64,000 bases of DNA, taken from contig NZ_CP109327.1 of NCBI RefSeq assembly GCF_035918155.1, forward strand, positions 6,882,001 through 6,946,000. The letters are read 5' to 3'. A program made the translations under genes and the position numbers. Below the pieces are notes generated by a model. The model did no database searches. It was not told the DNA's origin and worked only from the letters and a program-made list of their open reading frames with translations. The stretch comes from Streptomyces sp. NBC_01591 (lineage in GTDB: Bacteria; Actinomycetota; Actinomycetes; Streptomycetales; Streptomycetaceae). Below, in pieces: positions 29,582 to 34,255 of this stretch. How positions within the stretch are numbered: position 1 is the stretch's first letter; each line of letters starts with the position of its first letter.

Positions 29582-30879
29582 TGCGGGCATCTCTACGGAC
29601 GACGGCCGCCGCGGCGGCCACCGCACTGGCCCTGCTGCTCACCGGCTGCGCGGGGACGGACGACGGCAGGGGCGACAACGGGCGGATCGAGCTCAGCTTC
29701 CAGTCGCTGGCCTGGCAGAAGGAGTCCGTCGACGCCAACAAGCAACTGGTGAAGGAGTGGAACGAAGCCCATCCGGACATCCATGTCAGCTACGTCCAGG
29801 GCAGCTGGGACACCGTCCACGACCAGTTGCTCACCTCCTTCGAGGGCGGCGAGGCGCCGGACATCATCCATGACGCCTCCGACGACCTGGCCGACTTCGC
29901 GTACGGCGGCTACCTGGCCGATCTGCGGACGCTCCTCCCCGGCCGACTGACCGCCGACATCCCGCGGCAGAGCTGGTCCACCACCACCTTCGGCGACGGC
30001 GTCTACGGAGTGCCGTTCCTTCAGGAGCCCCGGGTCCTGATCGCCAACACCAGGATTCTCGCGGAGTCGGGGGTCCGCGTCCCGACGCCCGACCGTCCCT
30101 GGAGCTGGGCCGAGTTCCGGCAGGTCACCGAGGAGCTGACGGGCGAGGGGCGGTACGGCGTCGCCTGGCCGCTGAAGGAACCGGTCTCCGTCACGCTGAA
30201 CCTCGGACTCTCCGGCGGAGGCAAGCTCTTCCACCGCGGCGCCGACGGCAAGGTGACCATCCGAGCGGGCGAGGGCGACCGGATCGTCCCCGGCACCATC
30301 CACGACCAGGTCAATATCGACCACAGCGCTTCGCGCACCGCACTCGGCATGGGTGGCTCCGACACCCTTCCCGGATTCTTCGGCGGCAAGTACGCGATGG
30401 TGCCGCTGGGCTTCTCGTACCGCCAGCAGGTCGTCGAACAGGCCCCCGAGGGCTTCGAGTGGACGGTCCTGCCGGCTCCCGCGGGCAGTGCGGGCCCAGC
30501 CCAGGGGGTGAGTCCGCAGACCCTGTCCGTCTCGGAGGCCAGCCCGCACAAGAAGGAGGCCGCGCAGTTCATCGACTTCCTGCTGCGGCCGCCGAACATG
30601 GTGCGCCTGGCCAAGGGCGACTGGATGCTCCCGACCGGCACCGCGGCCCTCGCCGACCCGTCCCTGCACACCGCCGAGAACGGCTGGGCGACCGGTGTCG
30701 CCGTCGCGAAGGCGCTCCGGCCGGCGCCCGCCCAGTCGGTGCGCGGCTACCCGGAGTGGAAGGACAAGGTCGCCACACCCGCCCTCCAGGAGTACTACAG
30801 CGGGGCCATCGGGGCGGACGAGCTGAGGAAGCGTCTGGTCGACGACGGGAACCGGGTCCTGGCCCGCTATCAGCGCTGA
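29581..30879 (+). CDS. Extracellular sugar-binding lipoprotein
   Basis: 432 residues. The lipoprotein signal peptide ends in LLLTGCAGT, with Cys about residue 22 as the lipid anchor, followed by a family 1 solute-binding fold (LSFQSLAWQKESVDANKQLV onward). It captures the sugar for the two upstream permeases. ATG 29581 overlaps the permease stop by one base (TGATG). Placing the binding protein last is less usual than the binding-protein-first order. Substrate not predictable. Confidence 0.94.
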   Translation: MRASLRTTAAAAATALALLLTGCAGTDDGRGDNGRIELSFQSLAWQKESVDANKQLVKEWNEAHPDIHVSYVQGSWDTVHDQLLTSFEGGEAPDIIHDASDDLADFAYGGYLADLRTLLPGRLTADIPRQSWSTTTFGDGVYGVPFLQEPRVLIANTRILAESGVRVPTPDRPWSWAEFRQVTEELTGEGRYGVAWPLKEPVSVTLNLGLSGGGKLFHRGADGKVTIRAGEGDRIVPGTIHDQVNIDHSASRTALGMGGSDTLPGFFGGKYAMVPLGFSYRQQVVEQAPEGFEWTVLPAPAGSAGPAQGVSPQTLSVSEASPHKKEAAQFIDFLLRPPNMVRLAKGDWMLPTGTAALADPSLHTAENGWATGVAVAKALRPAPAQSVRGYPEWKDKVATPALQEYYSGAIGADELRKRLVDDGNRVLARYQR

Positions 30880-31475
30880 GGCACCCTCACGGCCGGTGCG
30901 GCGGCGGACGGTTCTTCGGCGATTCCGCCGCCACGTCGAGAGGGTCGGTTTCATGGGCCACTCAGTTTTTCCTGCGGCCGGGCCATGAATTACCGACCGG
31001 TACGTTTCTTCGGGTTCGTCGCCGGAACCCTCCGGGGGATGCACAGGAATCGAGGGCCCCGGTCCGGAGTATTCCTGGGCGTCGGTGATTCAGACATTCA
31101 ATGGCGTGAATTCGACTCTTCAGGCCCTTGTGCCCACGCGCCCCGTGCGGGTATGGGTGCCGCGTCGTGCCTGTTGTCGTGGTGGTCAGCCTGGTGCGTC
31201 CACACCCGCCGGGCGCCGCCGAAAACTGAACGCGCGGCCTCTTTCGGCCCGCCCGGACGGAAATCCGACGGACTTGGTTCCACCTGTGCCCGATTCGCCG
31301 TGATTCGGGTACGGCGAAAAAAGAAGTCATTGACAACTCCTTTCACGCTGAGCTTCACTCCTTTCGGCGGTGAGCGGCACAAAATTCCCGGTCAGAGGCG
31401 GGGGATTGGCGTCGCGATCGGTCCAAGTCATGCCCGCTTGAATGCAAATTCAGAGTAAAAGATGGAGGTGCTGTT
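30880..31475. other. Long 5' region ahead of the atropopeptide-like precursor gene
   Basis: About 600 bp without a supported gene. The first 60 bp hold a hairpin. The rest becomes clearly less GC-rich than its surroundings towards the precursor gene, for example GCGAAAAAAGAAGTCATTG near 31313 and GAATGCAAATTCAGAGTAAA near 31440. TTGACA at 31330-31335 could be a -35 but no good -10 follows. Antisense frames here look like noise. Confidence 0.5.
30900..30932 (+). terminator. Hairpin after the sugar ABC operon
   Basis: GGCGGCGGA (30900-30908) can pair with TCCGCCGCC (30924-30932) across a 15-base loop, 20 bp after the binding-protein stop. There is no T-run, as is usual for streptomycete terminators. 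Confidence 0.5.
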
Positions 31476-31556
31476 ATGAAGTTCCTTTTCTTGCTCAAGG
31501 ACAAGATGACGCCGGAGAAGAGCCTGAAGGCGTACGCCTGGTACCACTGGTACTAA
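31476..31556 (+). CDS. Atropopeptide-type (tryptorubin-like) RiPP precursor peptide, core AWYHWY
   Basis: 26 codons from ATG 31476 to TAA, with a strong ribosome binding site GGAGGTG five bases upstream. The peptide begins MKFLFLLKDK and ends KSLKAY then AWYHWY at the extreme C-terminus (residues 21-26). Tryptorubin A, the founding atropopeptide RiPP, is built from the hexapeptide AWYIWY and cross-linked between its aromatic side chains by a single P450. Here all four aromatic residues and the Ala are kept and only position 4 differs (His for Ile). A lone P450 gene follows 115 bp downstream, the expected partner. Residues 1-20 would be the leader. Seen: gene, core and neighbour. Inferred: the product class. 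The extra His could alter cross-linking. Confidence 0.88.
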   Translation: MKFLFLLKDKMTPEKSLKAYAWYHWY

Positions 31557-31583
31557 GCCGACAGAACGGTCCGTCGTTTCGAG

Positions 31584-31614
31584 GGACACGGTCAGTCGAT
31601 TCGGGCCCGTGTCC
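31584..31614 (+). terminator. Hairpin between precursor and P450 genes (attenuating or stabilising)
   Basis: GGACACGG (31584-31591) and CCGTGTCC (31607-31614) form a perfect 8-bp stem with a 15-base loop, 28 bp after the precursor stop and 57 bp before the P450 start. No T-run follows, so it more likely lowers read-through or protects the precursor mRNA than stops all transcription. This is a common way to obtain more precursor than enzyme. Confidence 0.5.
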
Positions 31615-31671
31615 GGCCAGGCCTCATCGGCCCGCCGGGCGCGGGCCCTTCCCGCTTCTTGGAGACCACCG

Positions 31672-32715
31672 ATGCACATGTCCGGTACCGGCAGCCGCGC
31701 CCGGGACGTCGTCTTCGCGCCGAGACTCCAGGCGCTCCTGCGAGACCACCGGGGCGAGGAGGTCTTCCGTCTGGACCCCGGCACCGTCGGCGTCGCCGGG
31801 GCCGACCTGACGGACCGGATCCTCGCCGCCAGACCGGCCGCCGAGGACGAGCGCCCCACCTTCAAACCCCTGCACGGACGGTCCATTCCGCGCACCGAGG
31901 CGTCGACGGTCATGCAGGCCATCGGCCGGGACGTCCGGACGGCACTGAAGAAGCCCGTCGGGAAGGTCGACCTCTCCGGCGAATGGCCGCACGTCGGCCA
32001 TGTGTTCCTGCGCGATCTGGTTCTCGGAGCCGACCCCTACCGGCTCCGCATCCTCATGGACCGCGCGCTGGAGCTGACGCCCAAACTCACCTGGACGGTC
32101 ATCGCCACGGGGGCGGCGCTGCCCGGCCGGCTCCGCCCCGGCGCGCCCGTCTCCGCCATCGCGGGCCTGACCGCCAATGCCGGGAGCTACAGCGACCGGC
32201 GTTACGCGATGGGCCTGTACCGGCGGGCGGCGGCCCCGGTATGTTTCACCGTCTCGACGCTCGTCGCCAACGCGCTCTGGCTCGGATCGCCCTTCGGTGA
32301 CGACACCTCGAACCGGAACATCCTGTACGAGGCCATGCGACTGCTGCCGCCCTCCTGGAACATCCTGCGGAAGGCGTCGCCGGAGTACCCCGCTCTCGAC
32401 TCCCGGATCGGCGCGGCCGACGACATCCTCCTCCTGCCGCTGCTGAGCCACCGCGACCCCGCGCTCTGGGACGACCCCGACGAGTTCCGCCCCGAGCGCT
32501 GGGACAGCCTGGACCCCGACGACCAGCCCGGGTACCTCCCCTTCGGGCACGCCTCGGAACGCTGCTGGGGCCGGCACATGGTGATGCCGCTCGCCGAGAT
32601 GCTGCTCGACATGCTGCGCGGCGACAATCTGACGGTGAGTCCGGAGCAGGCCGCCGCGAAGGTGCCCCTCGCCGGACTGATGGGGGTCGGCGACGTCCGG
32701 GTCGTCCGGACCTGA
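31672..32715 (+). CDS. Cytochrome P450, predicted cross-linking enzyme of the AWYHWY peptide
   Basis: 347 residues, shorter than the usual 400, with a brief N-terminus. The K-helix motif is YEAMRLLP (ExxR), the PERF-type motif is FRPERW, and the heme loop is PFGHASERCWG with the axial cysteine. The second glycine of the usual FGxGxHxCxG is Ala. The I-helix region (APVCFTVSTLVANALW) lacks the typical acid-alcohol pair. ATG 31672 follows TTGGAG; a second ATG lies two codons on. Ferredoxin and reductase must come from elsewhere in the genome. In the tryptorubin pathway one P450 makes all cross-links; that role is inferred here from position and from the core sequence. Confidence 0.88.
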   Translation: MHMSGTGSRARDVVFAPRLQALLRDHRGEEVFRLDPGTVGVAGADLTDRILAARPAAEDERPTFKPLHGRSIPRTEASTVMQAIGRDVRTALKKPVGKVDLSGEWPHVGHVFLRDLVLGADPYRLRILMDRALELTPKLTWTVIATGAALPGRLRPGAPVSAIAGLTANAGSYSDRRYAMGLYRRAAAPVCFTVSTLVANALWLGSPFGDDTSNRNILYEAMRLLPPSWNILRKASPEYPALDSRIGAADDILLLPLLSHRDPALWDDPDEFRPERWDSLDPDDQPGYLPFGHASERCWGRHMVMPLAEMLLDMLRGDNLTVSPEQAAAKVPLAGLMGVGDVRVVRT

Positions 32716-33052
32716 ACCCAATTTGGTGACCTCGTGAGGGCTCTGTGAACACGGGGGTGGAATCAAGCCGCCTCCCCGCCCGTCCGTACGGTCGGGCGGG
32801 GTTCGTCTTCCCGTGTGTGAAGTGTGCCGGTCGGAGCCGTAAGCCCGGTGTGTGCGGCGGATGTTGCGGCGGCGGTGCCCGACTTGGGCACGGCTGGCCG
32901 GTTTCTTATTACGTAACTTTGTTGAGTAAGTCACAGCCGCATGAAGGTCTTGATCTGGGCGCGTCAATCGGCGAGGGTTTCGAGCCAGCCCCCGGAGATC
33001 TTCCGGCCGGGGGCCAATCCCCCCACAAAGAATGACGAGGAGATCCCTCTTC
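32716..33052. other. Intergenic region: terminator and protease promoter region
   Basis: 337 bp. It contains the hairpin at 32774-32801 and, near 32907-32930, a lower-GC stretch with TTATTACGTAAC that may belong to the subtilisin promoter. No gene seen. Confidence 0.55.
32774..32801 (+). terminator. Terminator after the P450 gene
   Basis: CCCCGCCCG pairs with CGGGCGGGG across a 10-base loop, followed by TTCGTCTTCC. It lies 59 bp after the P450 stop and closes the two-gene peptide locus. Confidence 0.7.
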
Positions 33053-34255
33053 ATGGCAATTCACAAGCGCGCACGCCGGATCAAGCTGACCGCTGCGATA
33101 ACCGCGGTGGCCGCAGCGGCCGGGGTCACCCTGCTCAACACCTCCCTCGCCGGCGCCGCACCCGCTCCCGCGATGGGCACCGTCTACGGCGCGGACGCGG
33201 CGAACGCCGTCTCCGGCAGCTACATCGTGATGCTGGACGAGAAGGCCGACAAGGCGGAGCTCGCCAAGGAGTACGGCGGCAAGCTGAAGCGCAACTACAG
33301 CTCCGCCATCAACGGCTTCTCCGCCAGCGGCCTTTCGCTCACCGAGGCCAAGCGCCTGGCGGCCGACCCGGCCGTCTCCAAGGTCGTCCAGAACAAGAAG
33401 TTCCACATCGACGAGACCCAGGACAACCCGCCGTCGTGGGGTCTGGACCGGATCGACCAGACCGAGACGGCCGGCGACAACGCGTACACCTACCCGGACA
33501 GCGCGGGCGAGGGTGTCACCGCGTACGTCATCGACACCGGCGTCCGTACCACGCACGAGGAGTTCGAGGGCCGGGCCACCTCGGGCTACGACGCCGTGGA
33601 CAACGACGACAGCGCCGACGACGGCAACGGCCACGGCACCCATGTGGCGGGCACCATCGCCGGTGCGACCTACGGGGTCGCCAAGAAGGCCGACATCGTC
33701 GCCGTCCGGGTGCTCGACGACTCCGGCTCGGGCACCACCGAGCAGGTCGTCGCCGGTATCGACTGGGTCACCGAGAACCACGAGGGCCCCTCCGTCGCCA
33801 ACATGAGCCTCGGCGGCGGCGCGGACGAGGCGCTCGACGCCGCGGTCCAGAAGGCCATCGCCTCCGGAGTCACCTTCGCGGTGGCCGCCGGAAACGACTC
33901 CGCCGACGCGAGCGACAGCTCCCCGGCCCGCGTCCCGGAGGCCATCACGGTCGCCTCGTCCACGGTGGACGACGAGCAGTCCTCGTTCTCCAACTACGGC
34001 TCGATCGTGGACATCTACGCCCCGGGCTCGGACATCACCTCGTCCTGGAACGACAGCGACGACGCGTCCAACACCATCTCCGGTACGTCCATGGCGACCC
34101 CGCACGTCGTCGGTGCCGCCGCCGTCTACCTCGCCGGCCACCCGGACGCCACCCCGGAAGAGGTCGCCACGGCACTGACCGACGGAGCCACCCCCGACGC
34201 GATCTCCAACGCGACCGAGGGCACTCCCAACAAGCTGCTGAAGGTCGTCGAGTAG
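33053..34255 (+). CDS. Secreted subtilisin-like serine protease (S8 family)
   Basis: 400 residues. A signal peptide (MAIHKRARRIKLTAAITAVA onward, cleavage likely near SLAGAAPAPA) is followed by an I9 propeptide (about 55-118, SYIVMLDEKADKAELAKEYG). The catalytic domain has Asp161 in YVIDTGVR, His194 in GHGTHVAG, Asn281 in AAGND and Ser346 in GTSMATPHV. ATG 33053 follows GAGGAG; the upstream ATG at 33032 would contain that site. It degrades extracellular protein. A strong terminator separates it from the next gene and another separates it from the P450. Confidence 0.95.
   Translation: MAIHKRARRIKLTAAITAVAAAAGVTLLNTSLAGAAPAPAMGTVYGADAANAVSGSYIVMLDEKADKAELAKEYGGKLKRNYSSAINGFSASGLSLTEAKRLAADPAVSKVVQNKKFHIDETQDNPPSWGLDRIDQTETAGDNAYTYPDSAGEGVTAYVIDTGVRTTHEEFEGRATSGYDAVDNDDSADDGNGHGTHVAGTIAGATYGVAKKADIVAVRVLDDSGSGTTEQVVAGIDWVTENHEGPSVANMSLGGGADEALDAAVQKAIASGVTFAVAAGNDSADASDSSPARVPEAITVASSTVDDEQSSFSNYGSIVDIYAPGSDITSSWNDSDDASNTISGTSMATPHVVGAAAVYLAGHPDATPEEVATALTDGATPDAISNATEGTPNKLLKVVE

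Follow-up and report, generated by a model that had tools for sequence, protein, structure and literature searches.

We found a two-gene locus in the window (the whole 64,000-nucleotide stretch analysed; C1:6882001-6946000 of the 10.25-Mb, three-contig genome of Streptomyces sp. NBC_01591) that is likely a minimal atropopeptide locus, with a predicted product cross-linked through Trp2, Tyr3 and Trp5 of the core AWYHWY and His4 as a free spacer. The locus spans 31476-32715, from the ATG of the precursor gene to the stop codon of a cytochrome P450 gene (Table 1). As stated in the preliminary description, the small gene has 26 codons plus TAA, a strong ribosome binding site (RBS) and a C-terminal AWYHWY. 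The encoded peptide, MKFLFLLKDKMTPEKSLKAYAWYHWY, matches the NCBI model NF038372 ('tryptorubin family RiPP precursor') over residues 1-26 with 59.5 bits (cut-off 33). Atropopeptides are described in PMC11450843 as having a P450 of the class, a KSLK leader and a Trp at core position 2. KSLK occupies precursor residues 15-18, Trp is found at core position 2 and also at position 5, as in the bitryptides (xWxxWx subfamily), and the P450 was assigned to the class by identity and tree placement. Judged from the sequence, all three features are present, and the two-gene atropopeptide assignment made earlier is supported by the NF038372 match, the P450 kinship and the published definition.

Table 1. 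Features of the atropopeptide locus and its surroundings (window coordinates)
Feature	Position	Strand	Basis
Stretch absent at the same site in same-genus locus L144 (genome G070)	30880..32874	.	Locus comparison
Possible promoter region: TTGACA (31330-31335), then a dyad-like block	31330..31375	+	Conservation in 5 aligned loci
Precursor RBS, GGAGG	31464..31468	+	7 nt ahead of ATG; invariant in 5 aligned loci
26-aa atropopeptide precursor (KSLK leader, AWYHWY core)	31476..31556	+	NF038372 match
Stem-loop in the gap from precursor stop to P450 start	31603..31648	+	Folding z -5.05; stem survey; compensatory changes
P450 RBS, GGAG	31661..31664	+	7 nt ahead of ATG; invariant in 15 aligned gaps
Atropopeptide-type cytochrome P450, 347 aa	31672..32715	+	PF00067, 48.6 bits; kinship
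Terminator-like hairpin after P450	32779..32800	+	Scan; weak, 1.3 expected by chance

The precursor family is single-copy in this genome, with one match even at E <= 10. In the same genome, a search with the P450 returned the window P450 at E 2.7e-235 and the next best protein at E 5.4e-9. The suggestion that so short a gene may be missed by gene callers holds only in part: NCBI has a dedicated model, whereas the precursor is unlisted in one plasmid record of S. clavuligerus. This plasmid, pF1D18A (L171, 1799-1882), carries a GTG-start gene for a 27-aa precursor ending in AWYIWW, located before a P450 gene, and the gene table of the record, from which the precursor is missing, is stated to be incomplete.

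The single P450 gene reported after the precursor is present, starts 115 nt past the precursor stop and encodes the Cys-ligand motif FGHASERCWG. Among 7,999 candidates scored, 438 homologues were found at E <= 0.001, and the best 120 of these 438 are 69-94% identical to the window P450. The closest named relative is in Streptomyces sp. ADI95-17 (L038), with 95% identity in the P450 and about 92% DNA identity in the flanks. Identity to P450s adjoining atropopeptide precursors is 60-95%, including 60% for the varsorubin producer (L116) and 63% for the amyxirubin producer (L110). In a tree restricted to atropopeptide-type and own-genome P450s, 35 atropopeptide-type P450s were split from five other own-genome P450s with a support of 99, the outgroup branches being long. 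The window P450 groups with precursor-bearing P450s, including the ones from the two characterised producers (varsorubin and amyxirubin), so the first ground for refutation named in the preliminary description does not apply. Nor does the second, a lack of precursor conservation beside P450 orthologues. A scan of named genomes by P450 alone confirmed 114 relatives, with 80 loci kept, and 133 loci with a P450 match were reduced to 107 distinct P450 proteins, every one of which (107/107) has a small gene with a W..W-type core no more than 700 nt upstream. This full co-occurrence is partly built in, because the loci were chosen by likeness to the window P450 or by the precursor model. The leader carries a KSLK-like pattern in 104 of the 107, KNLK in L029 and L052, and RSFK in L100. 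NF038372 matches occur in 44 of 392 same-genus genomes, 42 of them exceeding the cut-off, and none of 14 control genomes has a match above it. The precursor-P450 pair is kept together in both Actinomycetota and Pseudomonadota.

We then compared the locus with known systems. According to PMC11450843, minimal atropopeptide clusters, of which tryptorubin A is the founder, commonly have a precursor and one P450, a KSLK leader, an xWxxWx core with WY pairs, and no need for a protease gene, all in common with the window locus; the tryptorubin A core has Ile at position 4, whereas the window core has His. The loci of varsorubin (sva, S. varsoviensis) and amyxirubin (A. xylanica) show the same gene pair and order but differ in their cores (SWYQWL and AWYIWW, respectively), leaders and neighbours. 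The scabrirubin system (ScaA/ScaB, PMC12352619) belongs to the same family, and ScaB accepts cores that have His at this position; on the other hand, it makes monocycles, its core is TWFIWYS, and ScaB is likened here by its published description. On the favoured reading, the KSLK-containing leader would dock on the P450, which would oxidatively cross-link Trp2, Tyr3 and Trp5, with Tyr6 left free and His4 serving as a spacer outside the cross-links. A general host protease would then free the hexapeptide, or a pentapeptide after loss of Ala; the bond pattern and the host-protease release are taken from PMC11450843. The linear core mass of 924.39 Da given earlier was recalculated and is correct, but the subtraction of 2.02 Da per cross-link should be applied cautiously, since varsorubin B1 has three new bonds with only four H lost (PMC11450843). 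If the product is tryptorubin-like and loses four H as varsorubin B1 does, its expected [M+H]+ is 921.368 for the hexapeptide and 850.331 for the pentapeptide.

The bond pattern cannot be read from grouping with known loci: in PMC11450843, the placement of a P450 was found to say little about structural novelty. Simple monocycles also occur in the family, as with ScaB (PMC12352619) and one varsorubin product (PMC11450843). The main product of this locus might be a scabrirubin-like monocycle, WYHW or WYHWY after trimming, closed by a single Trp-Trp link. ScaB forms rings of this kind from numerous precursors, including the tryptorubin-type core WYIWY (PMC12352619), and varsorubin B2a has one link (PMC11450843). 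Most characterised atropopeptides, however, have the complex shape, and AWYxWY-type cores with LauB1 gave tryptorubin B (PMC11450843). We regard a monocyclic main product as rather unlikely and favour the Trp2/Tyr3/Trp5 cross-linked product.

The novelty that the preliminary description implied for AWYHWY is overstated, because this core recurs elsewhere: it is found beside 10 of the 107 distinct P450s. In our genus sample (392 genomes), six of the 44 genomes carrying the family have it, and it accounts for 6 of 45 precursors. The other cores in this sample are AWYIWY (14), AWYLWY (11), AWYFWY (6), AWYGWI (6), SWYIWY (1) and AWYIWF (1). The ten AWYHWY loci comprise the window, L038, L039 and L015 with the same 26-aa precursor; L048 (S. 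huiliensis) with a GTG start; L041, L117, L120 and L023 with another leader; and L100 with an RSFK leader. The named strains with AWYHWY loci are Streptomyces sp. ADI95-17, sk2.1, S. silaceus, WAC 01529, G44, S. huiliensis and RPT161. ADI95-17 and sk2.1 have the same 26-aa precursor as the window and the other five have different leaders, and the P450s of the seven loci are 67-95% identical to the window P450. AWYHWY was not found among the literature matches listed, and the core list of PMC11450843 may well hold it. One genome (G358) carries two separate atropopeptide loci (L029 and L128), with the cores AWYIWY and AWYGWI. In Streptomyces sp. RPT161 (L100, 7778-7852), the precursor has 24 residues and RSFK replaces KSLK, a leader that would fall outside the published motif list. 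A single origin of AWYHWY was considered: on a tree with nine AWYHWY rows, the core history requires five changes, gains and losses both counted, at least three of them forced by supported branches; L100 was scored there as lacking a core, and some rows (among them L078, L059, L060, L065, L069 and L081) carry wrong core labels. The placement of L100 beside L095 and its own leader argue for a separate gain of AWYHWY in that lineage.

Core position 4 is variable (I, L, F, H, G, A, V or Q). In the experiments of PMC12352619, ScaB cyclised a precursor yielding WPHWY, and ScaA-I25H, altered at the equivalent position, was cyclised to the usual cyclic tetrapeptide, while I25R was not. Since position 4 varies and ScaB cyclises His cores, His4 is most likely a spacer residue that the enzyme tolerates. 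The ScaB result does not prove this for a P450 of the tryptorubin kind, because ScaB makes monocycles. The proposal that His4 forms a new cross-link or a metal-binding group is accordingly less well supported. In its favour, the biarylitide enzyme P450Blt links Tyr to His, so P450 chemistry on imidazole exists, and AWYHWY recurs beside unlike leaders. Against this, His cores interleave with Leu/Ile cores among close P450s (83-95% identity), and ScaA-I25H gave the usual product. A His cross-link made by the P450 of this locus is therefore unlikely, and we give it little weight beside a free His4.

We then investigated the selection acting on the two genes. The P450 is under purifying selection, with dN/dS values of 0.12, 0.30 and 0.20 against L038, L039 and L015, whose P450s are 95, 91 and 87% identical to that of the window and adjoin the identical 26-aa precursor. 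At the DNA level, the precursor genes of L038 and L039 do not differ from that of the window, and L015 has three synonymous and no non-synonymous changes. The final 39 coding nucleotides of the precursor are identical between the two main leader types, which may reflect shared origin, recombination or codon bias. Upstream of the precursor, TTGACAA is invariant in five aligned loci and the following dyad-like block is partly conserved; this region is a possible promoter and operator. A sigma-70 promoter scan of 31000-33100 gave no site, which could be read as a sign of a silent or decaying locus without a product. Such a locus is very improbable given the purifying selection, the unchanged precursor in three relatives and the conserved RBSs.

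The predicted P450 model, built from 41 alignment rows drawn from the query and the 120 relatives above, has a P450 fold with a mean pLDDT of 81.9. Its superpositions are loose (TM about 0.4-0.6, 11-20% identity among the 50 matches listed), with P450Blt appearing first at rank 36, and the best 60 of 179 solved structures match by sequence within P450 residues 215-326 only. Membership in another class of P450 cross-linked RiPPs, such as biarylitides or aminopyruvatides, could draw on these P450Blt structures and on a weak match to the aminopyruvatide ApyO model (NF050147; 60.7 bits over residues 215-326 only, cut-off 525), but it is practically negligible beside the KSLK leader, the direct tryptorubin-model match, the atropopeptide-class P450 kin and a precursor of 26 residues, where biarylitides have a five-residue precursor encoded by an 18-bp gene (PMC13417212).

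The cassette is flanked by a solute-binding-protein gene, which ends at 30879, and a gene for an S8 protease, whose start is at 33032. In L144, 69 nt (1274-1342) take the place of the stretch absent there, representing an empty site, where the S8 protease adjoins the same transporter gene but no P450 is present. The two flanking genes likewise adjoin each other in L165 and L170. The S8 protease was considered as a cassette member and rejected: a homologue exists in 117 of 150 same-genus genomes at E <= 1e-120 (some being paralogues near 60% identity), and of 15 further loci only L038, L039, L040 and L042 have it adjacent to the P450. For the second main His-core lineage (L041, L045, L117), the loci were searched for nine genes that flank the cassette in the window, and none was found apart from a 33% match to an ABC protein in L117. 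The precursor-P450 pair is the conserved unit. As for the terminator reported after the P450, a hairpin is indeed present, but the scanned stretch has two such sites against 1.3 expected in shuffles, and among four aligned relatives the stem is visible by eye only in L038; this part of the description is weak on both counts. An Rfam CRISPR-repeat match at the same place (19.3 bits, gathering score 45) was taken as chance.

A stem-loop between the precursor and P450 genes is new here. The gap in the window folds with z = -5.05. Over 106 gaps (L132 left out), the best stem score, defined as pairs minus two per mismatch, has a mean of 13.1, compared with 7.7 for dinucleotide shuffles and 7.5 for P450 coding stretches of equal length, and 73 of the 106 score above all eight of their own shuffles. 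Comparison gaps were drawn from the named loci and the window, with genes called by a simple G+C rule. Non-Pseudomonadota gaps of 50-170 nt (n = 90) have a mean of 13.4, compared with means of 8.4 for same-direction (n = 86), 11.3 for convergent (n = 27) and 7.7 for divergent gaps (n = 30; p = 3e-16 versus same-direction and 0.02 versus convergent gaps, kinship being ignored). Eight of 12 Pseudomonadota loci score at least 11. Stems of at least 11 pairs, with loops of up to 20 nt, exist in 86 of the 106 gaps across two phyla, and 20 gaps fall below; the 49-nt gaps of L030, L032 and L025 (scores 6-7) clearly have no such stem. Reading the stem-loop as a classical terminator was rejected, as none of the 86 stems is followed by at least five T within 8 nt.

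Compensatory changes were examined in clades chosen by hand, whose stems are unlike in sequence. They occur at 5 of 14 pairs in a first clade of 16 loci (95% of cells paired; 30-57% in slid versions) and at 3 of 12 pairs in the window clade of 15 loci (97% paired; slid 25-45%), where the signal is weaker, the number of pair types being equalled in 62 of 500 shuffles. A third set of 10 loci has seven consensus pairs, four with double changes, but is poorly aligned and has a covariation term of 0. Judging from conservation alone, the hairpin probably reduces how much P450 is made per precursor or shields the precursor mRNA, and it may tune the precursor:P450 ratio. More specifically, and tentatively, it could be a functional RNA element of two phyla that keeps its shape while its sequence changes and holds P450 output low relative to precursor. 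In PMC11450843, an RBS added before svaB raised the yield 100-fold, which fits limiting P450 translation, though it is no test of the hairpin; if the element is a brake, this gain would be relief of a built-in brake. No description of a hairpin between the genes was found in a narrow search of PMC11450843, PMC12352619 and PMC13417212.

Taken together, this is a real but fairly ordinary further member of the tryptorubin (atropopeptide) type, because its His sits at a freely varying position. The locus offers a natural pairing of precursor and P450 in which a titratable side chain is predicted to lie within an atropopeptide ring. It could show whether the free-spacer role that position 4 has with ScaB extends to complex members. 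Should the hairpin be a brake, its removal would be a simple route to higher yields of atropopeptides.
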